Below, in pieces: positions 3,903 to 16,754 of a DNA stretch of 16,754 bases. Position 1 is the first letter of the stretch. Each line of letters starts with the position of its first letter. A model generated the notes under the pieces. The model had not been told where the DNA came from and did no database searches. It worked only from the letters and a program-made list of their open reading frames with translations. Source of the stretch: Bacillota bacterium. Lineage in GTDB: Bacteria > Bacillota > Sulfobacillia > JAJZYS01 > JAJZLH01. The position numbers were made by a program, and so were the translations under genes. The stretch covers positions 1-16,754 of the forward strand of contig JAJZLY010000023.1 in the NCBI GenBank assembly GCA_021850485.1, in the 5' to 3' direction.

Positions 3903-4992
<1,090 letters not shown>

Positions 4993-5132
4993 GCCCGGTG
5001 AAGTTCAGGCGCAGCAGAGCTTGTTCTGCCCGGACTGGTGCCATGAGTCTGGATAAAGCCCCTGGGTTCGGACGTCGCCCCATAGGAGCTGCTGCTGATC
5101 GGCGCGAACGCCAAGCGCCCTGCCGTAGCCAC

Positions 5133-5648
5133 TCAGTCCTGGAAGGCCCGGCCCGTCTCGACCAGCGTCTTGAGGTCGCTGAGCACCCAACTCCAGCCGC
5201 CACCTGCACCATCGGCCTCGAGTTGGCCGGATAAAATGGCCGCGTGTTGCGGCGCACCTGTGAAATCGTGGATCACGGTCAGCTTGGTGACGCCGCCTTG
5301 ACCTTCCTCAATCTCGTAGGTGAGCCGGGTGAACGGCTCCGACCTCAGCGTCGCGTCCATCGGCATCCACCAGGTGAGGACCAGTTTGTGCGGTGGATCC
5401 AGTTCGATCACCTGGCCGTGGACGCCCACCTCCGACGCCGTCAGGTCTGGCGGAGCGCCTGCAGGCATCTCGTCAGGCAAAAACCCGCGGTAGGCGCCCC
5501 CGGGTCGCAGTTCATATTCGCCACGCCCGCCAAAGCCGTAGCGTGCGTTCCACTCCGGTTTGGTGATGGCGTCCCAGATCGCCTGGGGCGTGGCCCTGAT
5601 GTAGACCCGGTAGACCTGGGTGCTCAGGTCTTTTTCGGTCGCACTCAT
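5133..5648 (-). CDS. SRPBCC/AHSA1-family protein
   Basis: This is a 171-residue protein of the START/Bet v1-like AHSA1 (activator of Hsp90 ATPase homologue 1) superfamily, small cytosolic folds with a hydrophobic ligand cavity. Typical features are the opening strand and helix YIRATPQAIWDAIT, an internal GxYELRPGGAYRG strand pair, PPHKLVLTWW, and the closing helix GGWSWVLSDLKTLVE. Its ATG overlaps the stop of the upstream ArsR gene by ATGA, with GAGGAGG a few bases before, so the two are co-transcribed and translationally coupled. ArsR-AHSA1 pairs are common across bacteria and usually respond to an unknown small molecule or stress, and the substrate cannot be read from the sequence. It converges on rpoD, and the 140-base gap between them shows no convincing terminator, only short weak hairpins. 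Confidence 0.9.
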   Translation of the reverse strand: MSATEKDLSTQVYRVYIRATPQAIWDAITKPEWNARYGFGGRGEYELRPGGAYRGFLPDEMPAGAPPDLTASEVGVHGQVIELDPPHKLVLTWWMPMDATLRSEPFTRLTYEIEEGQGGVTKLTVIHDFTGAPQHAAILSGQLEADGAGGGWSWVLSDLKTLVETGRAFQD

Positions 5649-5971
5649 CGTGTCGCCTCCTCTTCGAGCTTCGCCTTGAGCTCGGCCAGCGCCGAGACCT
5701 GGCGTTTCGAGAACTTATCGATCCAGCGGTCATGGATCAGTCGGATCGGCACCGGGTTGAGAAAGTGGAGCTTCTCCCGGCCCGACCGTCTGGTGACCAC
5801 CAGCCCGGCATCCTCGAGAATGCGCAGGTGTTTCATGACCCCATGGCGCGTCAGTTCCAGCGTGGACTCCAGTTCGCTCAGCGTGCGGCCGTCACGCACG
5901 AACAGCTGGTCCAACAGGAAGCGACGTTGCGGGGCTGCCAGCGCCTTGAAGACACGGTCGTCGTCTGTCAC
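5645..5971 (-). CDS. ArsR-family winged-helix transcriptional repressor
   Basis: This is a small DNA-binding regulator. VFKALAAPQRRFLLDQL opens the winged-helix domain, and LSELESTLELTRHGVMKHLRILEDAGLV is the recognition helix-turn-helix with its wing. No cysteine metal-sensing motif is seen, so it belongs to the non-metal, AHSA1-linked branch of the family. I choose GTG 5971 (residues VTDDDRV) over GTG 6001, because the -10 box at 5979-5984 lies inside the longer reading and predicts transcription starting at about 5972. This gives a 108-residue protein from a leaderless message. A 16-bp perfect palindrome in the promoter spacer is the likely autoregulatory operator. Its stop overlaps the start of the AHSA1 gene. 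Confidence 0.9.
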   Translation of the reverse strand: MTDDDRVFKALAAPQRRFLLDQLFVRDGRTLSELESTLELTRHGVMKHLRILEDAGLVVTRRSGREKLHFLNPVPIRLIHDRWIDKFSKRQVSALAELKAKLEEEATR

Positions 5972-5978
5972 GATCGGA

Positions 5979-6008
5979 ATGATACGTGACCAAAAGGTCA
6001 CATGTCAA
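5979..6008 (-). promoter_or_regulatory. Promoter with embedded palindromic operator for the ArsR-AHSA1 operon
   Basis: On the minus strand a perfect -35 TTGACA (6003-6008) is followed after 18 bases by TATCAT (5979-5984), five of six matches to consensus. The spacer holds the perfect palindrome GTGACCAAAAGGTCAC (5986-6001), the right size and place for an ArsR dimer to block RNA polymerase. Expected transcription start is about 5972, next to the GTG at 5971. Operator ownership by this ArsR is inferred from position. Confidence 0.8.
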
Positions 6009-6349
6009 GCGCTCTCCGATCCATGACTCGCCAACCTTTAGATGCAAGCGCCCAGCGGCATAGAGTCCTAGAGCGACCCCCAGCAGTGTGCGAATCAGCT
6101 GACGGGTCGGGAGCTGGGTTGCGTCCGCAGCGATGGCACGCGGCGTGGGCGGTTTCGCCGGTCGCGTCGTGCAGCGGACCGGGATCGCACTCGTGCCCGT
6201 AGAGGTGATCTGACCCGGTCGCTGCCGGGCCGATCAAGACGAGCTTTCGAAGCACGCCTGGCCAGGCTAAAGGCGCGTGGCCCCGGGCTGCGACGGCCAG
6301 GAAGTGCGAACGAGATGGTGAGAGACGGGACCAAGAGCGCCAAAAGGAA
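6009..6349. other. Non-coding stretch between divergent ArsR and kaiC operons
   Basis: About 340 bases without a gene I can support. Open frames on either strand give arginine- and proline-rich translations without recognisable domains, typical of high-GC non-coding DNA. It could hold upstream control sites for kaiC, but I recognise none except the kaiC -10 box at its right edge. Confidence 0.5.
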
Positions 6350-6355
6350 TATAAT
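6350..6355 (+). promoter_or_regulatory. Predicted -10 box of the kaiC operon
   Basis: A perfect TATAAT stands at 6350-6355 in otherwise GC-rich DNA, 67 bases before the kaiC ATG. The best -35 at 17-base spacing (GGGACC, 6327-6332) matches TTGACA at only three positions, so an activator may be needed. The predicted start is about 6362, giving a leader of about 60 bases that carries a hairpin and the AAGGGAG ribosome site (6407-6413). Confidence 0.55.
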
Positions 6356-6383
6356 GGAAGACCGAGAGCGGGATAGGCACCTG

Positions 6384-6399
6384 GGCCCCAGTCGGGGCC
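6384..6399 (+). promoter_or_regulatory. GC hairpin in the kaiC leader
   Basis: GGCCCC and GGGGCC form a perfect six-pair stem with a four-base loop (AGTC), ending seven bases before the kaiC ribosome binding site. It lies downstream of the predicted transcription start. With no U-run it is not an intrinsic terminator. It may affect translation or RNA stability, but this is inference from position only. Confidence 0.4.
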
Positions 6400-6421
6400 G
6401 ACCTATAAGGGAGTTGCTTCC

Positions 6422-8179
6422 ATGGCCGTAGCGCCAGATCGCACCAAACAGCACCTGCTCCCTGGTCTGCGCAAGGCGGCTACTGGGATTCCTGGGTTGG
6501 ACGAGATCACCGGCGGCGGCCTGCCAGCCGGGCGGACGACCTTGGTCTGCGGCACCGCCGGGAGCGGCAAGACCTTGCTTAGTTTGCAGTTCTTGGTCTA
6601 CGGGGCGTCGGCACTGGGCGAACCCGGCGTTTTCATATCCTTCGAGGAGCGCCCCGAAGACTTGGTGGTGAACGTCGCGTCCTTGGGGGTGGACCTGGCT
6701 GCCTTGGTGGCCGAGCATCAGATCTACTTGGACCATGTCGAGGCTGGGCTGGATCAGATGGAGCCGACGGGGAGCTACGACTTAGAGGGGCTGTTCGTTC
6801 GGCTCGGCTATGCGATCGACCAAATCGGGGCCAAGCGAGTGGTGCTCGACACCTTGGAGGTCTTGTTCCAGGGCCTGCGCGACAGCACCGTGGTGCGCGG
6901 CGAATTGCGCCGACTGTTCCGATGGCTGTCCGATCGTGGCATCACCGCCATGGTCACGGCCGAGGCCGGCGCCACCACCCTGACCCGCTACGGCATCGAG
7001 GAGTACGTCTCAGACTGCGTGCTCTCCTTGCACCAAGATCTCGACAGCGGCATCTCGACCCGTCGGCTGCGCGTCGTGAAATACCGGGGATCGCAGCATG
7101 GTAGCAATGAATGCCCATTTTTGATCGACGCCAACGGCGTGGCGCTGTTTGCCATCACGTCGCTGTCCCTGGACCACCCGGCCGGAACTGAGCGGCTGTC
7201 CAGCGGCGTGGCCAAGTTGGACCAGATGCTGGGTGGTAAGGGATTTCTGGAAGGTAGCGCCATCTTGGTGTCTGGGCACGCCGGCAGCGGCAAGGGGAGC
7301 CTGTGTGCGCACTTTGCCGATGCCGTGTGCCGACGAGGCCAGCGCTGCCTGTACCTGGCCCTGGAGGAGTCACCACTGCAGATTGCCCGCAACATGCGGT
7401 CGATTGGCATCGATATGGTGCACTGGCAGGAGGCGGGACTGCTGACCGTGCGTTCCCTGCGTCCGACTGGGGCTGGGCTGGAGTGGCACCTGATGGAGAT
7501 GCAACGCCTAGTCCAGTTGATCGATCCGGCGGTGGTGGTGGTCGATCAGATCGGCGCCTTCGATCTGGTGGGCAGGCCGATCGAGGTTCGCGCCATGCTC
7601 ACCCGGCTGACCGACTTCTTGAAGTCTCGAAACGTCACCGTCATGATGAGCGCCCTGATCAGCGGAGAGGCTGACGAGACGGAAAGTCAGGCCGGCATCT
7701 CTTCCCTGATCGACAGCTGGATCGTGCTCCGAAATGTGGAATATCAAGGAGAGCGAAACCGCACCTTGAGCGTGCTCAAGTCGCGCGGCATGGCCCATTC
7801 TAACCAGGTGCGTGAGTTTTTGGTCTCGGACCACGGCGTGGACCTGATCGATGTGCAGCTGGGACCAGACGGGGTGCTCTTGGGTTCGGCCCGGCTAGCT
7901 GCGCAGACTGCTGCCCGTGCCACCCGTGAGGAGCGCGGCCGGGAAGCGGCCCGCCAGCGGGCGGTGATCGATCGTAAGCGGATGCTGACCGAGTCAGCGG
8001 TAGTTCAGCTCCAAACCCAGTTTCAGGCGGAGCAGGCGGAACTGGAGGCGGCGCTGGATGCAGAGGCGACGCGCCTTGGTGACCTGCGGATGAGCCAGGC
8101 GGCGTCTGAGCGCGAGCGCAGCACCAACGTGGTGGTGCCGCCTCGCACCCGGCCGCTCAGAGCAAAGAGACGCTCATGA
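6422..8179 (+). CDS. kaiC: KaiC-family circadian clock ATPase/kinase homologue
   Basis: This is a double-RecA-domain KaiC of 585 residues (519 in Synechococcus). CI has Walker A GTAGSGKT (44-51), the catalytic pair E75-E76 and Walker B D143. CII has E315-E316 and Walker B D375, but its Walker A reads GHAGSGKG (285-292), with glycine where Thr/Ser normally binds magnesium. The phosphorylation loop aligns well: the cyanobacterial S431-T432 pair corresponds to S427-S428 (GISSLIDSW), and the end of CII (LKSRGMAHSNQVREFLVSDHG) is clearly KaiC. Residues ~488-585 form a charged, probably coiled-coil tail unlike the KaiA-binding tail of cyanobacteria. ATG 6422 has GGGAG eight bases upstream. The stop overlaps kaiB by ATGA. 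Family members autophosphorylate and bind KaiB, and whether this one oscillates cannot be told. Confidence 0.95.
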   Translation: MAVAPDRTKQHLLPGLRKAATGIPGLDEITGGGLPAGRTTLVCGTAGSGKTLLSLQFLVYGASALGEPGVFISFEERPEDLVVNVASLGVDLAALVAEHQIYLDHVEAGLDQMEPTGSYDLEGLFVRLGYAIDQIGAKRVVLDTLEVLFQGLRDSTVVRGELRRLFRWLSDRGITAMVTAEAGATTLTRYGIEEYVSDCVLSLHQDLDSGISTRRLRVVKYRGSQHGSNECPFLIDANGVALFAITSLSLDHPAGTERLSSGVAKLDQMLGGKGFLEGSAILVSGHAGSGKGSLCAHFADAVCRRGQRCLYLALEESPLQIARNMRSIGIDMVHWQEAGLLTVRSLRPTGAGLEWHLMEMQRLVQLIDPAVVVVDQIGAFDLVGRPIEVRAMLTRLTDFLKSRNVTVMMSALISGEADETESQAGISSLIDSWIVLRNVEYQGERNRTLSVLKSRGMAHSNQVREFLVSDHGVDLIDVQLGPDGVLLGSARLAAQTAARATREERGREAARQRAVIDRKRMLTESAVVQLQTQFQAEQAELEAALDAEATRLGDLRMSQAASERERSTNVVVPPRTRPLRAKRRS

Positions 8180-8242
8180 AGGCGCAGGCGGAGATGAACC
8201 CTCAGAGCGAAGAGGCGCTCGTGCAGGCGCAGGCGGAGCTGA
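8166..8242 (+). repeat. Imperfect tandem duplication across the kaiC/kaiB junction
   Basis: Two 32-base copies, 8166-8197 and 8211-8242, match at 28 positions with a 45-base period (15 codons). Each copy carries a potential kaiB start at the same place, ATG 8176 and GTG 8221, both in frame. The kaiB N-terminus is therefore internally repeated (KAQAE then VQAQAE). It looks like an in-frame duplication of the original start region. Confidence 0.8.
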
Positions 8243-8535
8243 GTTCGCTCGCCAGCGCGGCGCGCTGCCGATTGCGGTTATACGTGGCGGGCCTGGCCGC
8301 CTCTTCGACCTTGGCGATCACCAACGTGACGGACATCTGCGAGCAGGAGATGGGTGGCCAGTGCGATCTCGAGGTGATTGATATCTATCAGCAGCCGGAA
8401 CTTGCCCAGCGGGATCAGATTCTGGCCATTCCAACATTGGTCAAGACCTGGCCGCTGCCGATGCGTAGCGTCATTGGCGATCTTAGCCAGAGACAGCGGG
8501 TGCTGACTGGGCTCGGCATCCTCGGCAGGCGCTGA
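8176..8535 (+). CDS. kaiB: KaiB clock protein homologue
   Basis: This is a KaiB, the thioredoxin-like, fold-switching partner that binds the KaiC CI ring. The core from about residue 30 aligns along its whole length with cyanobacterial KaiB: LRLYVAG, then DLEVIDIYQQPELAQRDQILAIPTL, the proline-rich turn, and VIGDLSQRQRVLTGLGIL, including the Gly-Asp known to matter for fold switching. It ends soon after, without the acidic cyanobacterial tail. The first ~27 residues are extra, alanine- and glutamate-rich, and include the duplicated segment, so GTG 8221 is an alternative start giving 104 residues. Its ATG overlaps the kaiC stop (ATGA) and its TGA overlaps the next ATG, so all three proteins are translationally coupled. 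A KaiB-like (rather than SasA-like) identity is clear from the conserved C-terminal half. Confidence 0.95.
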   Translation: MKAQAEMNPQSEEALVQAQAELSSLASAARCRLRLYVAGLAASSTLAITNVTDICEQEMGGQCDLEVIDIYQQPELAQRDQILAIPTLVKTWPLPMRSVIGDLSQRQRVLTGLGILGRR

Positions 8536-11120
8536 TGCGACGGCCAGTCGGAACCAAGAAGCCGAGGAGGCCTCCGCCAAAACTGACGGTGGTGGCCAAT
8601 GGCTTTCGGCCCAAAGGGGTCGCGGCTGATGGGCAGCGGGATGCGGGCGAGGCCATTCCCGGCCCCGGTTTCGAAATTGACATCGCGCCTGGGAACATGC
8701 CAGACGAAGGCTATCGGCGAGTGGTCGAGTCGATGGGCGAGGGCACGCTCAGCGTCAGCCCCGACGGATTGATCCTCTATGCCAATTTGACGTTTGCCGG
8801 CCTGGTCAAGACGCCACTGGAACATGTGATCGGTGCTTCCGTGCAGACCTTCGTCTGCGCTTCTTCGCTGCCTGCCCTAGAGCGGATGATCCGATCTGAG
8901 AGTCCGGACTCCAGCCATCAGCGGATCGACTTCCAAGACAGCCAGGACTTGGCGCTGGCGACCTATTGCCACGCCTTTAGGAGCACCAGTGGCGACCTAC
9001 CGACGATCGGCCTGATCGTCACCGATCTGACCGCACTGTTGGCTGGGGAGTCCGAACGGGCGCATCTTGGCGCCATCGTGGAGTCTGCTTCAGACGCCAT
9101 CATGGGGCTCAGTCCCGAGTTCATGATCACCAGTTGGAACCATGCTGCAGAGGAACTTTACGGATACACTGCGGCCGAGGCGATCGGCCAGCCGGGATCC
9201 TTGATCGTGCCCAAAGAGCGCCAGCGTGCGGTGCGGGCGACCAACGCCACGTTGGCGGTGGGCGGGCGGATTGCCAGCCACGACACCGTGCACCGGCGCA
9301 GCGATGGAAGCTTGATTCCGGTTTCGGTGTCGGTGTCGCCGCTGAGAGACGACCGACAGCGCCTGGTGGGAAGCGCCCTGATCAGCCGGGATCTCCGGCT
9401 CGAGCAGGAAGCAGAAGTCCAACTGAGGCTGGCGGCATCTGTGTTTGAGAGTACCAGTCACGGCATCTTGATCACAGACAGCGTCCACCAGATCGTGGCT
9501 GTAAACAAGACCTTTAGCGTGTTGTTCGGGTTCTCCCAAGACGAACTGATCGGTCGCTCGGTGGCGGCGGCCTGGTTGTCCGAGCCGGGCATCGGTGTGT
9601 CCTATCGAAGCATCCAGATCGAGCTAGGGCGCACAGGATCTTGGCAAGGAGAGTTGTGGGCGAGACACAACGACGGGCACGTGCAGCCGATCCATCTGGT
9701 CGTATCGCAGGTGCGCGACACGCACGGGGCCGTGACCCACCATGTCCTGTTGGCTCGCGACATCAGCCAGCGCAAGGCCGATGAGGAGCGGATCGCCTTT
9801 TTGACCGATCATGACACCTTGACGGGGCTGCCCAGCCGGCTGGCGATGGCAAAGCGGCTAGAAGAGGTACTGGGCGATGCGGTCAGCCATCCGGGATCCA
9901 TGGTGGCGGTGTTGTTCATCGACCTCAAACGGATGAAGGAGGTCAATGACGCCTTCGGGCACACCGTCGGAGACGATGTGCTGAAGAGGGCCGGTGAGCG
10001 CCTGAGAGGCTGCTTGCGCGAGCACGACCTGGTGGCCAGATACGGCGGGGACGAGTTTGTGGTTGTGCTGCAGGGGATGGCCGAGAGGGGGGCGGTGGAA
10101 AAGGTTGCCGCCAAGATCCAAGACGTGCTTGCCCAACCGTTGGTCGTGGACGGAGCGACCGTCTCGACAGATGCTAGCATTGGTGTCAGCCTGAGCCCGT
10201 CCGACGGCAGCGATGAGGAGACGTTGATCCGACGGGCCGGGCTCGCCATGCGTGAGGCGAAAGAGTTGGACCGGGTCGGATCTTGCTTCTACCGAGCGGA
10301 ACTGGACTCTCGGGTGTTTGAGACCCTGTCGTTGGGCACGGCCTTGCGCCAAGCGATCGTCGGCGGAGAGTTGGTGTTGCACTATCAGCCGACGGTCAGC
10401 ATGCCGAGCCAGCGGGTGAGCGGGGTGGAGGCCCTGGTGCGCTGGCAGCGGGCGGGCAGGGGCCTCGTGTCTCCGGCCGAGTTCATCCCCATCGCCGAGC
10501 AGCGCGGACTGATCGTGCCGCTCAGCGAATGGGTGCTCAAAGAGGCCTGTGCCCAGGCCCGCCGCTGGCAACGCCAGGGGATGGGTGCACTGACCGTCGG
10601 CGTCAACATTTCCGCCGTACATTTGAAGCAGCCAGACTTTCGGGCCTCGGTGATCGAGATGATCCGGGAATCCGGGGCGAATCCACGCCAGATCGTGCTG
10701 GAGGTGACCGAAAACAGCCTGGTGCAGCACGATCAGATGGTGGTCGATGCCTTAAACGACCTCCGCCGGCTGGGCATCGGTCTGTTCATTGACGACTTCG
10801 GGACCGGCTATTCATCGTTGACCTACCTGAAGCGGCTGCCGATCGTTGGCTTGAAGATCGACCGCAGCTTTGTCAGTGGTCTGCCCGATCAACTCAGTGA
10901 TCGGGAGATCGTACGGGCCATCTTGGGCATGGCCAAGGGGCTACACCTGTCGGTAGTGGCAGAGGGAGTGGAGACCAGAGGTCAGCTGGACTTCCTGACG
11001 ACAGCAGGCTGCCCGGAGGTGCAAGGGTTCTACTTCAGTCGCCCTCTGACTGGGGCACAGATGCAAGACCTCTGGCACAAAACCGGCGGCGTGTTGCCGC
11101 CCGCCCCGCAGCAGGACTAA
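8535..11120 (+). CDS. PAS-PAS-PAS-GGDEF-EAL bifunctional c-di-GMP cyclase/phosphodiesterase
   Basis: This is an 861-residue cytosolic protein without membrane segments or signal peptide. Three PAS domains lie at about 60-172, 180-297 and 300-415, followed by GGDEF (about 425-580) and EAL (about 600-845). The cyclase motif GGDEF (504-508) is intact, with an RxxD inhibitory site (R495-D498) at the standard spacing. The EAL domain has E632-A-L, VNISA, the EVTEN form of ELTES, DDFGTGYSSL (from D753), LKID, AEGVET and QGFYFSRPL, so all usual metal ligands are present. Both activities are thus predicted, with product feedback. Its ATG overlaps the kaiB stop (TGATG). This placement suggests it is the output or input partner of KaiBC, with the PAS domains as sensor or docking modules. 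What the PAS domains bind cannot be read. Confidence 0.95.
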   Translation: MRRPVGTKKPRRPPPKLTVVANGFRPKGVAADGQRDAGEAIPGPGFEIDIAPGNMPDEGYRRVVESMGEGTLSVSPDGLILYANLTFAGLVKTPLEHVIGASVQTFVCASSLPALERMIRSESPDSSHQRIDFQDSQDLALATYCHAFRSTSGDLPTIGLIVTDLTALLAGESERAHLGAIVESASDAIMGLSPEFMITSWNHAAEELYGYTAAEAIGQPGSLIVPKERQRAVRATNATLAVGGRIASHDTVHRRSDGSLIPVSVSVSPLRDDRQRLVGSALISRDLRLEQEAEVQLRLAASVFESTSHGILITDSVHQIVAVNKTFSVLFGFSQDELIGRSVAAAWLSEPGIGVSYRSIQIELGRTGSWQGELWARHNDGHVQPIHLVVSQVRDTHGAVTHHVLLARDISQRKADEERIAFLTDHDTLTGLPSRLAMAKRLEEVLGDAVSHPGSMVAVLFIDLKRMKEVNDAFGHTVGDDVLKRAGERLRGCLREHDLVARYGGDEFVVVLQGMAERGAVEKVAAKIQDVLAQPLVVDGATVSTDASIGVSLSPSDGSDEETLIRRAGLAMREAKELDRVGSCFYRAELDSRVFETLSLGTALRQAIVGGELVLHYQPTVSMPSQRVSGVEALVRWQRAGRGLVSPAEFIPIAEQRGLIVPLSEWVLKEACAQARRWQRQGMGALTVGVNISAVHLKQPDFRASVIEMIRESGANPRQIVLEVTENSLVQHDQMVVDALNDLRRLGIGLFIDDFGTGYSSLTYLKRLPIVGLKIDRSFVSGLPDQLSDREIVRAILGMAKGLHLSVVAEGVETRGQLDFLTTAGCPEVQGFYFSRPLTGAQMQDLWHKTGGVLPPAPQQD

Positions 11121-11123
11121 GAA

Positions 11124-11146
11124 GGGACGTCGCGGCCCGCGATCCC
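11124..11146. terminator. Bulged hairpin after the kai operon, possible terminator
   Basis: Four bases after the stop of the GGDEF-EAL gene, GGGA plus TCGCG pairs with CGCGA plus TCCC around a three-base loop (GCC), giving nine pairs with a two-base CG bulge. There is no T-run on either side, so it is not a classical intrinsic terminator. It lies between convergent genes, where a bidirectional terminator or transcript-end stabiliser would be expected. Confidence 0.4.
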
Positions 11147-11178
11147 AGTCTGACCAAAGCGGACGCCTGGACGAAGCA

Positions 11179-12159
11179 TCAGTTTGTCGTTGGCCACTTG
11201 GTCAGGCCATCTCGCTCCAGGAGTTGCCCAAACCGAGACGCCGCCCGCCGCTTGGTCGGGTCCAGCACATGGGCGTAGGTGCGCGCGGTCACGGTGGGGT
11301 TTTCGTGGCCGAGGTGCGCCGCAATCTCGGCAATGCCAACACCGGCCTGCAGCTGTAGGCTGGCGTTGGTGTGCCGCAGGGCATGGAGACCGTAGCCAGG
11401 CAGGCCCAGTTCCTGGCGCAGATTGATCCAAGACCGCGTCACGTTGCGTCGGGACAGATGGGTGCCCAAGCGATTGGGAAATACCAGCGGCGACGACGCT
11501 TCGGCCTCGCTGCGCCGGAGCCAGATCGCCCGCAGCAAGGCGACGGTTTGTTCGGGCAGGACGATTTGGCGAAAGCCGGCGGCGCTCTTCGGGCTGCCTT
11601 CGATCAGATGACCGCTGACTTCCACTAGGTTGCGACTAACCGTGAGGGTGGAGGCGTCGAGATCGACATCGGCCCAGCAAAGCGCCAACGCCTCCCCGAT
11701 GCGCAGGCCGCTTTGCCACAGAAACGAAAACAGCGGGCCCAGGCGACAGCGGGTCGAAGCGGCATCCAGACGGCGCATCTCCTCCAGGGAGAAACAGCCT
11801 ACGGGTTGTGGGTGGGCGCGCGGCGGGCGGACAAGCGACATCGGATTGGCGGTGAGAAGTTCGAGGCGAACGGCCTCCGAGAGAGCGGAGCGCAGGACAG
11901 CCTGGACATAGGCCACCGTGCGTGGGGAGAGCCGGGACCCAGAGCGCGACGAAGTGGTGGCGAGCTCGGCCGTCCAGCGGCGCAAGACTGCCGCGGTGAG
12001 GGCAGTGAGCGGCAGCTCGCCAATCCGGGGCAAGATGTACAGGCGGGCCAGTCGCCGGTATGTGTCGGCGGTGGCCGGCCGCAGGCCTGGACCGACGATG
12101 GTGACGAGCCACCATTGCACAAAGACGCCGGTGGTTTGGGCCGTGCTGTCTTCGGCCAA
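11179..12159 (-). CDS. Tyrosine recombinase/phage-type integrase
   Basis: This is a site-specific recombinase of the phage integrase family. An N-terminal SAM-like DNA-binding domain (FVQWWLVTIVGPGLRPATADTYR onward) precedes the catalytic domain. The active-site residues are visible: Arg in SGLRIGEAL, Lys in GSPKSAAG, His and Arg in LHALRH, His in AAHLGH and the nucleophile Tyr in ARTYAHVL. The frame extends upstream to TTG 12252, but that extension is a serine- and leucine-rich stretch without integrase homology and contains a TATTAT box. TTG 12159, with GGGGGAG five bases upstream, gives 326 residues and fits the family's start. GTG 12165 is another option. It converges on the kai operon. 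No tRNA or att repeat is visible nearby, so the element it served is unknown. Confidence 0.9.
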   Translation of the reverse strand: MAEDSTAQTTGVFVQWWLVTIVGPGLRPATADTYRRLARLYILPRIGELPLTALTAAVLRRWTAELATTSSRSGSRLSPRTVAYVQAVLRSALSEAVRLELLTANPMSLVRPPRAHPQPVGCFSLEEMRRLDAASTRCRLGPLFSFLWQSGLRIGEALALCWADVDLDASTLTVSRNLVEVSGHLIEGSPKSAAGFRQIVLPEQTVALLRAIWLRRSEAEASSPLVFPNRLGTHLSRRNVTRSWINLRQELGLPGYGLHALRHTNASLQLQAGVGIAEIAAHLGHENPTVTARTYAHVLDPTKRRAASRFGQLLERDGLTKWPTTN

Positions 12160-12197
12160 GGCCACTCCCCCAGATCGCAGCAAGAGCGAACTGGAAG

Positions 12198-12203
12198 ATA
12201 ATA
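12198..12203 (-). promoter_or_regulatory. Possible -10 box of the integrase gene
   Basis: On the minus strand TATTAT stands in an AT-rich patch, predicting transcription from about 12191, 32 bases before the TTG at 12159 and its GGGGGAG site. No good -35 is found at 16-18 bases; a perfect TTGACA (12257-12262 on the minus strand) is too far away to pair with it. The box supports the shorter integrase start. Confidence 0.35.
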
Positions 12204-12364
12204 CCAATATGCTGAGACGGAGGATAGGCCGGAGCGAGGTGAGCCGTGGCAACGGCTGTCAAACCGACTCGAGAAAAGGGCCGGGCGGGAACAAAAGAAG
12301 TCCGACTTGGTGTCGGGAAGGTGGATACTGGCAAGATGTCTGACCATCAGGGGAGCTGCTAAAC

Positions 12365-13177
12365 GTGCATCGGCTACTCTCCTTGGTCCTTGTATTGCTA
12401 TTCCATGCGGTGGGCACTCCCGGCGCCTACGCCCTCTCGCCAGCCACGTTTCGCCAAGACCTGAGCCTGCTTCACCAGCACCATGTACAGGTGCTGAGCT
12501 TGGCTCAGTTTGAGGGGTACATGAAGGGCACGTATCAGGTGACAACACCATCCGTCCTGATCGCCTTCGACGACGGCAACGTCTCCGACTTCACCCAGGC
12601 GGCGCCGATTTTGGCGGCGTTTCACATGCCGGCGGTTGCCTTCTTGATCGGCAGCCGGATCGGCGAGGGGCCAAACTCGCTGTCGGCGTCCCAAGTCAGG
12701 GCCATGGCAGCCAGCGGCTGGTGGAGCTTTGGCGCGCACACCTATGACCTACACTCCCTGATCGATGGCATGCCCAGTATGCAGTACGCCTTTACCCACC
12801 ACGTGCTCAGTGCCACGGTCAGCCAAGACGTGTATCAAGAGGCCCAGACCTTTTCCGGCCTTGGTCTGCCCCAGCCGACCGCCTTCGCCTACCCGTTCGG
12901 CTTCTACAACACTGAGACCAACGCTCTGCTCGGCCATGCCTATCCTTTTTTGTTCACCTCAGTGCCCGGCTTCGCCCGCCCTGGGCAACGCCTGATCCCG
13001 CGCGTGGACATCGGTATTGGCTTCGACAGCCTGCTCCGCCTGAGCGGCTATCTGGCGGCAATGGACGGCTACTGGGCAACCAGTGCGCGGGGCCAAGACA
13101 TCAGCCGGAATGACGACGGAATGCCGCTCGTCCCGCGGCAGTTGCCGATTGACCACCAGGTGACGCGGGTGGCCTGA
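12365..13177 (+). CDS. Secreted polysaccharide deacetylase (NodB domain, PgaB/IcaB-like)
   Basis: This is a 270-residue carbohydrate esterase family 4-type deacetylase, expected to remove N-acetyl groups from a surface polysaccharide outside the membrane. GTG 12365 has GGGGAG about nine bases upstream. Residues 1-23 are a signal peptide (HR, then a leucine/valine core, then GAYA). The NodB domain shows D69-D70 in IAFDDGN, the metal-binding H125 and H130 in AHTYDLH, and FAYPFGFYN. HTYDLH with an early FDDG and the LSLAQFEGYMKG lead-in resembles the PgaB/IcaB group acting on poly-N-acetylglucosamine, but the gene is alone, without a synthase. It is divergent from the integrase across about 200 bases that contain the integrase leader and a short CCGAC/GTCGG hairpin (12302-12316). 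The family assignment is firm; the substrate is a guess. Confidence 0.87.
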   Translation: MHRLLSLVLVLLFHAVGTPGAYALSPATFRQDLSLLHQHHVQVLSLAQFEGYMKGTYQVTTPSVLIAFDDGNVSDFTQAAPILAAFHMPAVAFLIGSRIGEGPNSLSASQVRAMAASGWWSFGAHTYDLHSLIDGMPSMQYAFTHHVLSATVSQDVYQEAQTFSGLGLPQPTAFAYPFGFYNTETNALLGHAYPFLFTSVPGFARPGQRLIPRVDIGIGFDSLLRLSGYLAAMDGYWATSARGQDISRNDDGMPLVPRQLPIDHQVTRVA

Positions 13178-13286
13178 CCGCCCGCCTGGAGGACGGCACA
13201 GTGGCATCTGGACTGGGCAGTTAGTGTGCTCGGTCAGCCCCGATAAGATGGGAGGGCCAGAGTGTCTCGGCCGCGGCCGGCGTGCG

Positions 13287-13292
13287 TATACT
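13287..13292 (+). promoter_or_regulatory. Predicted -10 box for the small-protein/nucleotidyltransferase pair
   Basis: TATACT matches the consensus at five of six positions in a GC-rich background. It predicts a start at about 13299, leaving an 18-base leader with GAGGGG six bases before ATG 13317. No good -35 is seen at normal spacing. Confidence 0.45.
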
Positions 13293-13316
13293 GGTGGGGG
13301 AAGCGAGGGGATGGCC

Positions 13317-13607
13317 ATGTCAGAAGAGCACGAGCCGCCTTACTCGTGGCGTGATCGATGGCTGGAAGAGCAGGGCAAGGTGGTTGGTCAACGCACCGGT
13401 CACCGTGCGTTCGGGTTCCAGCACATGGAAGGGTTTGCAGAATTGGCGGATGCGCTGCGCGGAGTAGATATCATTCGGCCCCGGGGGGTCGTTCGGTTTC
13501 ACACCTTCGAGGAGGCGGATGCCTGGTGGACGGCGAGCACAGTGATCAGGCCCCGCCCAGTCGGGCGCCCACTCTCCGGGATCTGGTCCGGCTGTGCGAG
13601 GCCCTGA
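13317..13607 (+). CDS. Small protein of unknown function upstream of a nucleotidyltransferase
   Basis: This 96-residue protein matches no family I can name. It is charged and tryptophan-rich: it opens MSEEHEPPYSWRDRW, has a middle part with HRAFGFQHMEGFAELADALR, and then VRFHTFEEADAWW. I chose ATG 13317 because GAGGGG lies six bases before it, while ATG 13311 directly abuts that site. A short ORF ending in a FEEAD-WW-type motif directly before a minimal nucleotidyltransferase is an arrangement I associate with TA-like pairs, so it is the candidate antitoxin or adaptor. Its last 82 bases overlap the start of the nucleotidyltransferase in another frame. Translation past about residue 80 turns into arginine- and proline-rich sequence, the overlapped part, and may not be under selection. 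Confidence 0.7.
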   Translation: MSEEHEPPYSWRDRWLEEQGKVVGQRTGHRAFGFQHMEGFAELADALRGVDIIRPRGVVRFHTFEEADAWWTASTVIRPRPVGRPLSGIWSGCARP

Positions 13608-14041
13608 ATCGGGCTGGATGCCGCTATCTGCTGATCGGCGGGTTTGCCGTGAACTATTACGGGTTGGAACGACTGACCAACGACATCGATTTGCTGGTGA
13701 GTTCGGCACCAGAAAACGTGGCTCGACTCAAGCAGGCGCTGAGCATCCTCGAAGATAACGCTGCCCAAGACATCGGCCTAGACGACATTGAGACGTACAC
13801 AGTGGTCCGGGTGCTGGATGAAATCACCGTTGATCTCCTGGGTGCGGCGGGTGATGTGCGGTTTGAAAATGCCACTGCGATCCAGGTCACGCTGGGAGAG
13901 GTGGTCATTCCGATAGCTGATCTGACTACCCTGATCGCCCTCAAGCAAGGGGCCCGGGGCAAGGATCGAGCGGACCTTGAGTTTTTGTTGCAGGTGAAGA
14001 ACCGACAGAGACTGGGTGGAGACCAAGGGCCTGACTGCTAA
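13526..14041 (+). CDS. Minimal nucleotidyltransferase-fold protein (MNT/DUF6036-like)
   Basis: This is a 171-residue DNA polymerase-beta-like nucleotidyltransferase. Signature elements are LLIGGFAVNYYG (the GG motif), then NDIDLLV supplying the two metal-binding aspartates, then a third acidic residue in ITVDLLG. The C-terminal IADLTTLIALKQGARGKDRADLEFLLQ is typical of small stand-alone transferases found in toxin-antitoxin and phage-defence loci. GTG 13526, with GAGGAGG (13509-13515) ten bases upstream, gives the compact form; the frame stays open upstream to 13358 but that part is a shadow of the small protein. It overlaps the upstream gene by 82 bases, implying coupled expression. Such enzymes transfer NMPs to proteins or tRNAs, but the target here cannot be known. 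Confidence 0.85.
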   Translation: MDGEHSDQAPPSRAPTLRDLVRLCEALNRAGCRYLLIGGFAVNYYGLERLTNDIDLLVSSAPENVARLKQALSILEDNAAQDIGLDDIETYTVVRVLDEITVDLLGAAGDVRFENATAIQVTLGEVVIPIADLTTLIALKQGARGKDRADLEFLLQVKNRQRLGGDQGPDC

Positions 14042-14374
14042 CGCCGACGGCTCATGCCATGCTGTGCCCTTGCAGACGCGGGTCGGATCTGGGCTGTGAG
14101 CCGGGCAAGCGCGACGAACCGACCGGCCACGGGCAGCGATGGAGACCTTCGATAGGTTTTCTCTTCTGGCCGGACGTGAGACGAAGCCAGCATGCGGGTG
14201 AGGGGCCGAGTCCTTCTTCCGAAAGCCACAGAGTGATGCTGCGCCTGGAACTTGGCGACCGGAGCGTCTTGAGGCGGGATAGGCTGGCTCGGCAAAAGCT
14301 CGCCGCCTGATCTTGGCCCCATTTCCACGACCGGGTGCCGGCGTGTCGTGGCGGCCGTCGCAGTCGGGTGCACC
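14042..14374. other. Non-coding stretch before the oxidoreductase gene
   Basis: About 330 bases with no supported gene. Open frames on both strands (for example 14059-14310 on + and 14038-14373 on -) give low-complexity, arginine- and serine-rich translations without domains, good ribosome sites or family likeness. It could be decayed sequence. No repeat or tRNA is seen. Confidence 0.5.
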
Positions 14375-14402
14375 TTGATGTCGACCGCACCCGTGCTATT
14401 CT
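14375..14402 (+). promoter_or_regulatory. Promoter of the MDR oxidoreductase gene, predicted leaderless
   Basis: TTGATG (14375-14380) and TATTCT (14397-14402) are separated by 16 bases. The transcription start expected seven bases after the -10 box is 14409, exactly the A of the ATG. No ribosome binding site precedes the start, in keeping with a leaderless message. Confidence 0.65.
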
Positions 14403-14408
14403 ACGGAC

Positions 14409-15356
14409 ATGTCAACATCTGCTGTGGCCGCCCGTCTGCACCAGCCCGGAGATCCACTTCGGGTTGAATCGGTCGCGCTCTTGGAACCGGGTCAGGACGA
14501 GGTTTTGGTCAATTTGGCCTATGCGGCGATCAATCCGGTCGACCGCTACGTGGCGCTGGGACGGGTGGCCCCGGACAGCCCCCTGCCGCGCACGCTCGGC
14601 TCCGAAGCCGTGGGTACAGTGGACGGTCGGCCGGTTCTGGTCTGCGGACACCAGCTCGGCCGCCAGCGCGACGGGCTGTGGGCCACTGCGGCCGTGGTGC
14701 CGCGCGGGGCGGTGAGCGATCTGCCGGCTGGCGTCGACCTGAGGCAGGCGGCGGCCATCGGCGTGGTGGGGGTCACCGCCTGGACGGTCGTCACCAGGCT
14801 GGCCGGGGTGACGGCGGCCGATCGGGTCCTGGTGCTGGGTGCCAGCGGTGGCGTCGGATCCACGGCCATCTCCCTCGTCCGCTCGATCGGGGCCCAGGTG
14901 TGGGGCCAGACCGAGGACTCCAAGAAGCGGGCCTGGATCTCAGCCAGAGGTGCGAGCCAGGTGGTGGTGACGGATAGCGAGCACCTGGTGGAAGAGGTGA
15001 GAGCGCTACGCCCCACGGTGGTGCTCGACCCCCTGGGTGGCCAGTTCACGGCCGGCGCCATCACGGCGCTGGAGCCCTTCGGCCGGCTGATCATCTTCGG
15101 CACATCAGCCGGACTGCGCGGCGAGATCAGCATCCAGGAGCTCTACCGCAAGGAGCTCACGGTGCTGACCTACTCGGGGCTGATCGAACCTCCGGAGCGC
15201 TTCGCGGCGGGTGTGGCGGGAGCTCTCGGCGCACTGGCCGACGGGCGCCTCCGGATCAGCGTGGACAGCGTGATGCCGCTGGCCGAGGTCAATGAAGCGC
15301 TGGCCCGCCAGGCCAACCGGGAAGTGCTGGGCAAACTGGTGCTCGATCTGAGCTGA
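14409..15356 (+). CDS. Zinc-independent MDR-family quinone oxidoreductase-like protein
   Basis: This is a 315-residue NAD(P)H-dependent oxidoreductase of the medium-chain dehydrogenase/reductase superfamily, quinone reductase branch. The N-terminal GroES-like domain carries YAAINPVDRYVALG and LGSEAVGTV. The Rossmann domain has the dinucleotide loop LVLGASGGVGSTA (142-153). The structural and catalytic zinc ligands of alcohol dehydrogenases are absent. The end (LAEVNEALARQANREVLGKLVLDL) is the standard family ending. It is likely to reduce quinones or an alpha,beta-unsaturated carbonyl, with the substrate unknown. It stands alone, with its own predicted leaderless promoter, and converges on the vapBC-like pair. 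Confidence 0.9.
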   Translation: MSTSAVAARLHQPGDPLRVESVALLEPGQDEVLVNLAYAAINPVDRYVALGRVAPDSPLPRTLGSEAVGTVDGRPVLVCGHQLGRQRDGLWATAAVVPRGAVSDLPAGVDLRQAAAIGVVGVTAWTVVTRLAGVTAADRVLVLGASGGVGSTAISLVRSIGAQVWGQTEDSKKRAWISARGASQVVVTDSEHLVEEVRALRPTVVLDPLGGQFTAGAITALEPFGRLIIFGTSAGLRGEISIQELYRKELTVLTYSGLIEPPERFAAGVAGALGALADGRLRISVDSVMPLAEVNEALARQANREVLGKLVLDLS

Positions 15357-15474: not shown

Positions 15475-15894
15475 TCAGGTCTGTCGCCACGGGTCGATGA
15501 CAGCGATGCCGGAGTGGCGGAAGTCCTTGCCGTTGCGAGTGGCCAGGGCCGCACCGTGCGCCAGACAGATGGATGCGATCTGGGCGTCGAAACCGTCAAT
15601 CGGCAGCCCGAGACTGTCGCGGCGGGCAACGACCAAGGCGTAGTGGGTGGCGGCAGCGGCGTCGAAAGAAAGAACGTGGCTCTCGAAGGCAGAAAAGACG
15701 TCTCTTGCCGTGGCGCCGAGAAGTTCCTTGCGCTGGCCCGCCGCCAGCCTTTCGATGCCATAGAGAATCTCACCTAGCGAGATCGAGGTCGTGTAAAGTT
15801 CGTTCCCGGATTGGGCCAGCACCCAGTCTTTCACCGCTGGGACGGGAGACGGTTTCATCAGTTCAGACAGCACATTGGTGTCGACGACAATCAT
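15475..15894 (-). CDS. vapC: VapC/FitB-like PIN-domain toxin ribonuclease
   Basis: This is a 139-residue PIN-domain endoribonuclease, the toxin of a type II toxin-antitoxin module. The acidic active-site residues are D5 (VVDTNVLSELMKP), E42 (SLGEILYGI), D103 (GFDAQIA) and D124 (TRNGKDF), all intact. The opening and the TRNGKDF element place it closest to the FitB-like branch. Its ATG overlaps the antitoxin stop by ATGA and has no ribosome binding site of its own, so translation depends on the antitoxin being translated first. RNA targets in this family are usually tRNA or rRNA, and this one's target is unknown. Confidence 0.94.
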   Translation of the reverse strand: MIVVDTNVLSELMKPSPVPAVKDWVLAQSGNELYTTSISLGEILYGIERLAAGQRKELLGATARDVFSAFESHVLSFDAAAATHYALVVARRDSLGLPIDGFDAQIASICLAHGAALATRNGKDFRHSGIAVIDPWRQT

Positions 15895-16136
15895 GACGAG
15901 AGATCGGCGGCCCTAGGCGGCGCGGATCGCACCGGCAGGTCCAGTTCTGTGCCTCCGATGGCGGTGAAGCGATCCAGCAGTGTGGCGAGAAGGCCAGCGG
16001 ACGCACTGGGCATACTGACTGCGTCGGCCAGGATGGCGCGGATCTCCGCCTCCACCGAACGGCCATGGGCGGCCGCCCGCAGGCGGAGTTGGGCTTTAAC
16101 CCGATCATCCAAGTTGCGGATACTGACAGCGGCCAT
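15891..16136 (-). CDS. vapB: VapB/FitA-like ribbon-helix-helix antitoxin
   Basis: This is an 81-residue antitoxin. Residues 1-40 (SIRNLDDRVKAQLRLRAAAH, then GRSVEAEIRAILADA) form the ribbon-helix-helix DNA-binding domain of the FitA group. The C-terminal half is the expected toxin-wrapping tail. ATG 16136 is preceded by GGGAGGTGA with eight bases of spacing. The open frame continues upstream, but the promoter and operator lie there, so the longer reading is not used. It is predicted to bind the 19-bp palindrome upstream and repress its own operon together with the toxin. Confidence 0.9.
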   Translation of the reverse strand: MAAVSIRNLDDRVKAQLRLRAAAHGRSVEAEIRAILADAVSMPSASAGLLATLLDRFTAIGGTELDLPVRSAPPRAADLSS

Positions 16137-16152
16137 TGCACTCACCTCCCGG

Positions 16153-16171
16153 GTGCTATCAATGATAGCAC
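16153..16171 (-). promoter_or_regulatory. Palindromic operator and -10 box of the vapBC-like operon
   Basis: GTGCTATCAATGATAGCAC is a perfect palindrome with nine-base arms and a single central base. On the minus strand it contains TATCAT (16162-16167), a good -10 box predicting transcription from about 16155 and a 19-base leader to ATG 16136. Occupation by the VapB-VapC complex would block RNA polymerase directly. No strong -35 is seen. Confidence 0.75.
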
Positions 16172-16197
16172 TGTCATTCAGGATGGCACCTTCTTCT

Positions 16198-16754
16198 TGA
16201 CCGGTTGTGGCTTGGCCATCACGGCCGGGTAACCAGCCGCCAAGGGTGTCCCAACGAGCGTGCCGAGGGTGCGGAGCCCAGGAGTTGATCGTTGCCGTTG
16301 GGGGCAGGGACAGATTTCTGCCTGTGACCAGGCCACACAGGTCTGCTGGCACCGCCTGCTTTGCGATAGCCGGCTCGTGCCACCGACGGAGAGAAACCTG
16401 CCCGCAGGTGGCAACGGGCCGGGGCGCCAGCAGGGGCCGTCGGCCCGAACACGTCGAAAGGGGAGCCGCATGTCATGAGCCTTCGCAGCGACACTACCTG
16501 CAGCATCGGCTGGGTGGCGGCCCGGGCCATCTTATGGGCCATCTTCCTGAGCCGCAACCATCCCACCCCATCGCCAGGTGGGTCTGTCCGCTACCCAAGG
16601 CGCACCCAGAGACAGTGTCCTAGCCGTCTCACGAGCGGGCTGACCAGGACATGTGGCGTGGTGGCCGGGCCCTCAGGGGCCCCAGCTGGCCCTCGCACTT
16701 GATTGCGACTGTCCGGAAGTCTTTGCCCGTTAACTCCTCCGTGCGCAAGACTGG
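16198..16754. other. Right-end stretch without a supported gene
   Basis: No reading frame here resembles a known protein. Frames such as 16207-16623 and 16475-16702 on + and 16219-16566 on - are low-complexity shadows without convincing ribosome sites. Local structure includes ACCTGC-CC-GCAGGT (16397-16410) and GGGCCC-TCAG-GGGCCC (16667-16682). A minus-strand frame open from the right edge to about 16641 could be the tail of a gene outside the window, but it is too short to judge. Confidence 0.5.

Follow-up and report, generated by a model that had tools for sequence, protein, structure and literature searches.

In Rhodobacter (Cereibacter) sphaeroides, kaiC and kaiB are followed by a gene for an HWE histidine kinase, and the same gene order is found on Rhizobium plasmids. 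Passages of PMC10076222 describe a coiled-coil extension in the R. sphaeroides KaiC (KaiC-RS), report that the protein functions without KaiA, and name the ATP-to-ADP ratio as the driving cue. In purple bacteria, PAS kinases adjoin kaiBC, and an oxygen input has been suggested in passages of PMC10931921. According to passages of a 2011 survey (PMC3164672), most kaiC-kaiB pairs outside the cyanobacteria are followed directly by a gene for a histidine kinase or a GGDEF/EAL protein. For cyanobacteria, passages of a 2026 article (PMC13001216) suggest that c-di-GMP acts indirectly on the Synechococcus clock.

The window, that is, the whole 16,754-nucleotide stretch of Bacillota DNA analyzed here, contains a three-gene kai operon:

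6422..8179, plus strand: kaiC, assigned to the KaiC2 type; 585 aa, with CI and CII ATPase domains and a C-terminal helical extension
8176..8535, plus strand: kaiB; 119 aa, the KaiB domain being preceded by an N-terminal extension
8535..11120, plus strand: PAS-PAS-PAS-GGDEF-EAL gene, the third gene of the operon; 861 aa

As read from the sequence, kaiC and kaiB overlap by four bases (ATGA, 8176-8179), and kaiB and the third gene by one base (TGATG, 8535), which confirms the overlapping three-gene unit of the preliminary description. A sister species, the second of the genus (G001), carries the three genes in the same order and on the same strand with both overlaps. Protein identity between the two species is 88% for KaiC, 76% for KaiB, and 64% for the third protein, and the corresponding dN/dS values are 0.07, 0.19, and 0.28, which are rough because dS is about 1. 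Both kaiC and the third gene evolve under purifying selection. Since the triad is conserved together with both overlaps, its arrangement is not due to chance; the proposal had been made to depend on conservation of this order in relatives, and the order is kept.

The operon resembles that of R. sphaeroides in its gene order, in a KaiC2 protein with two serine sites and a C-terminal helix, and in the lack of KaiA. It differs in the third gene, which encodes a histidine kinase in R. sphaeroides, and in the CII Walker A motif, which reads GKS there and GKG here. With a c-di-GMP protein immediately 3' of kaiC-kaiB, it also resembles clusters in passages of PMC3164672, and it shares its operon plan and output domains with four kaiC-kaiB-PAS-GGDEF-EAL operons of Chromatiaceae and Methylococcaceae (L068, L083, L089, and L090). 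Unlike the window, these four keep a leading helix at the front of the third protein, and three of them have two kaiB genes. The pairing of kaiBC with a c-di-GMP enzyme has thus already been described and is not unique, as the preliminary description had suspected. The data neither establish nor reject a single origin of the GGDEF-EAL operons of the window and of Chromatiaceae and Methylococcaceae (AU p = 0.62).

Our preferred reading, to which we assign a probability of about one half, is that the locus encodes a KaiA-independent KaiC2-KaiB module with a co-translated c-di-GMP phosphodiesterase as its partner, coupled through the first PAS domain (PAS1) of the third protein.

The first protein contains two PF06745 stretches corresponding to CI and CII and scores 645 bits against the NCBIfam KaiC model NF006799 (cut-off 408). 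Among solved structures, it is closest to R. sphaeroides KaiC (8dba, E = 2e-167), in an alignment that spans KaiC residues 15-551 and includes the coiled-coil region. Fold comparison of the predicted structure also ranks 8dba first, with a large rmsd that probably reflects a different domain orientation in the model. Three features of this protein bear on its type and activity:

7274..7297, plus strand: CII Walker A motif, GHAGSGKG; residue 292 is Gly, as in G001, and Thr or Ser in 85 of 85 other KaiCs
7700..7705, plus strand: predicted SS phosphorylation pair of KaiC2, Ser427-Ser428, aligned with R. sphaeroides S413/S414
7883..8128, plus strand: C-terminal helix, residues 488-569; one long helix in the predicted model, which corresponds to the coiled-coil extension in R. 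sphaeroides KaiC

KaiC2 proteins are recognized by a helical C-terminal extension of about 50 residues, which is found here in the model helix and in the 8dba alignment through residue 551, and by two phosphosite serines and two KaiC-family P-loop ATPase domains, all of which are present, with CII divergent. By these sequence features, the protein is of the KaiC2 type, nearest to the KaiA-free R. sphaeroides KaiC.

The divergence of CII was examined in an alignment with 85 other KaiCs. Besides the Gly at position 292, residue 376, which follows the Walker B Asp, is Gln here and Pro or Ser in all 85, and residue 378 is Gly here and Thr, Ser, Asn, or Asp in all 85. CII retains GxxxxGK, the Glu pair, and the Walker B Asp. 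The Ser or Thr of Walker A serves as a Mg ligand and is invariant among P-loop NTPases, according to passages of PMC9599734. Because this residue is replaced by Gly, the CII kinase is likely weakened, and KaiC autophosphorylation may be impaired in both species. The KaiA-independent autophosphorylation that is a trait of KaiC2 is accordingly a doubtful prediction for this KaiC, and doubt also falls on the earlier proposal that KaiC phosphorylation serves as the signal. These substitutions, each unique among the compared KaiCs, together with the long, unplaced branch of the window and G001 pair in the KaiC tree, could mean that KaiC has lost its own cycle and persists as a fixed ATPase scaffold or a stress protein without a timing role. 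We regard this as possible if doubtful, and it would be compatible with a link to c-di-GMP. It is countered by the intact CI motifs, both CII catalytic Glu residues, and Ser427-Ser428, as well as by the low dN/dS of kaiC. Within a limited literature search, the CII substitution looks new. If it abolishes autophosphorylation, the genus would offer a natural test of KaiC signaling without phosphorylation.

The second protein has a KaiB domain (89 bits against a Pfam cut-off of 27), scores below the NCBIfam equivalog cut-offs for circadian KaiB, and has Legionella KaiB (Lpp1115) as a structural relative. The window has the KaiC and KaiB core in common with the cyanobacterial KaiABC-SasA system. 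In contrast to that system, a search of the window genome, which is 97% complete, gave no match to KaiA and no SasA-type kinase with a KaiB-like domain, the KaiB of the operon being the only KaiB-domain protein of the genome. As no histidine kinase lies within the operon either, the preliminary description of a kaiBC operon without kaiA or a histidine kinase agrees with these searches.

In its predicted structure, the third protein has three PAS folds ahead of GGDEF and EAL, and Pfam likewise finds PAS folds, GGDEF (138 bits), and EAL (249 bits). The domains to which the argument returns are the following:

8703..9062, plus strand: PAS1, residues 57-176; the front-end PAS common to third-slot proteins of KaiC2 operons
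9807..10268, plus strand: GGDEF domain with an intact motif and I-site (RxxD) in the window; the motif is destroyed in G001
10341..11045, plus strand: EAL domain; active-site motifs intact in the window and in G001

We surveyed GTDB species genomes for kai loci and considered the best 80, ranked by similarity to the KaiC described here. A full front end, consisting of a leading helix (AEETLxAIRxGEVDALVV) and a PAS domain, occurs in 74 of the 76 third-slot proteins among these 80 loci. The window and G001 proteins lack the leading helix and keep only the PAS half, so the third protein is described here as sharing the PAS and not as a full member of the front-end group. PAS1 scores 77-83 bits against the operon-specific front-end profile; PAS2 and PAS3 score 13-17 bits, and unrelated PAS proteins from outside kai loci reach at most 34 bits. 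Among the best 80 loci, the third-slot outputs include HATPase_c in at least 49, GGDEF in at least 8, EAL in at least 6, and a sigma-54 activator in at least 2, counts that are lower bounds because some proteins end at contig ends, and proportions that apply to this ranked set and not to all KaiC2 operons. The six EAL cases are the window, G001, three Chromatiaceae, and one Methylococcaceae; GGDEF-HD is also among the outputs joined to the front end. The shared front end of these clock-linked proteins likewise appears to be a new detail as far as our limited literature search extends, and it offers a rule, open to testing, for the way in which KaiA-free Kai systems are linked to their outputs.

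The c-di-GMP enzyme occupies the slot held by a kinase in related operons and has PAS1 in common with those kinases, which makes the proposed role of a second messenger enzyme as a KaiBC partner plausible. Signaling from KaiC to c-di-GMP, the other half of that proposal, is something we infer from the operon and the shared domain. The opposite direction has also to be weighed, namely that the PAS protein is an input that senses redox or another cue and acts on KaiBC, with c-di-GMP turnover as a side branch. Passages of PMC10931921 treat the adjoining PAS kinase of R. rubrum and R. sphaeroides as a possible oxygen sensor signaling to the clock and not as an output, and the heme oxygen sensor DosP is among the solved PAS proteins closest to the front end, with a weak E value of 2e-06. 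Against this, the front end is joined in turn to a kinase, GGDEF/EAL, GGDEF-HD, and a sigma-54 activator, a series that fits outputs better, and we consider an input role unlikely. The preferred reading, with PAS1 on the output side, has its own difficulty here, in that the missing leading helix could be the part that contacts KaiBC.

We also compared the GGDEF-EAL part on its own. It matches other kai operons at 310-359 bits and proteins of the same order at up to 318 bits; as the two sets of matches are about equal, they point to no particular donor for this part.

For the direction of c-di-GMP turnover, the window GGDEF domain retains its motif, the metal-binding Asp, the Asn, and the I-site, and cyclase activity is therefore possible. 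In G001, the motif has become GSQEF and the metal-binding Asp is replaced by Lys, with EAL intact; this, too, looks like a new detail within the limited literature search. The EAL active-site positions present in the window are EAL, N, E, DDFGTGYSSL, K, E, and Q, and identity between the two species is 77% for EAL and 56% for GGDEF. In NCBIfam, the PAS3-GGDEF-EAL part comes closest to phosphodiesterases such as DibA, matched below their cut-offs. Because GGDEF is dead in G001 with EAL intact, and EAL is the better conserved domain, breakdown of c-di-GMP is the better guess and the likely activity of the third protein. Net synthesis with a secondary EAL, for which the intact GGDEF of the window speaks, we judge very unlikely in view of its loss in G001, the conservation of EAL, and the phosphodiesterase relatives. 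The earlier view, in which KaiBC could set c-di-GMP levels through this enzyme, needs the correction that breakdown is the probable direction. The 2011 survey (PMC3164672) works from domain drawings, and the passages of it drawn on here contain neither the front end, nor the CII change, nor the dead GGDEF with intact EAL of G001.

Under the preferred reading, KaiC would assemble, like R. sphaeroides KaiC, into a double ring that its C-terminal helices hold together, and would switch state according to the ATP/ADP ratio, one of the states being bound by KaiB, again as in R. sphaeroides. PAS1 at the front of the third protein would then read the KaiBC state and control the EAL domain, and through it the c-di-GMP level. 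Because the CII P-loop is without its Mg-binding Ser or Thr, the read-out in this genus may depend less on autophosphorylation than on nucleotide state or KaiB binding. Presumptive elements of this scheme are the double ring, the timing role, the physical contact with its direction, and the net phosphodiesterase activity. A broader version would make the front-end PAS a common adaptor of KaiC2 operons, reading out the state of KaiBC and joined to exchangeable outputs; in this genus, a KaiC with a crippled CII kinase site would then control a c-di-GMP phosphodiesterase without any phosphorylation cycle, by way of nucleotide state and KaiB binding. We put this forward tentatively, as an extension that is rather unlikely. 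Either version, if true, would link an hourglass-type KaiBC module to a second messenger. Downstream of c-di-GMP, the genome speaks less for the preferred reading: PilZ and MshEN, two common receptor domains, were not found in it, which leaves the suggested control of biofilm, motility, or polysaccharide without support. Seven GGDEF matches occur in the genome, so the third protein is not the only source of c-di-GMP control.

The distribution of the operon is patchy. It is present in two of the three species of the genus, the third (G002) giving no hit for any of the three proteins at the applied thresholds, and KaiB was matched with an E value of 1e-9 or lower in 3 of 398 genomes of the phylum, namely the window, G001, and one other. 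This pattern suggests that the operon was either acquired by transfer within the genus or lost from G002. The distance from rpoD to a quinone oxidoreductase gene is 1.24 kb in G002, 9.4 kb in the window, and 29.8 kb in G001, and a recombinase gene adjoins the operon:

11179..12252, minus strand: tyrosine integrase, adjoining the kai operon in the window and in G001

The three genes might therefore be cargo of a mobile element that merely share an operon, with no direct functional coupling, as their rarity, the neighboring integrase, and the 1.24-kb slot of G002 would allow. We find this highly unlikely, given that gene order and overlaps are kept and that the front-end PAS is common to third-slot proteins of many phyla.

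Within the window, the variable slot between rpoD and the quinone oxidoreductase gene extends over 4992-14409; in G002, it holds a small toxin-antitoxin-like pair. The DNA alignment of the window and G001 begins at the kaiC start and takes in the integrase together with a polysaccharide deacetylase gene (12365-13177), which lies downstream of the integrase in both. No tRNA adjoining the operon was found in the window, and no sigma-70 site for kaiC was found upstream on the plus strand. Divergent from kaiC, an ArsR-type regulator and an AHSA1 protein are encoded on the minus strand (5133-6001), with a sigma-70-like site matching at 11 of 12 positions at 6008-5979. Farther downstream, the same-strand ORF (15891-16352) upstream of a PIN-domain protein gene (15475-15894) looks antitoxin-like and has no NCBIfam match, and an AbiEii-like nucleotidyltransferase (Pfam AbiEii, 28 bits) is encoded at 13358-14041.
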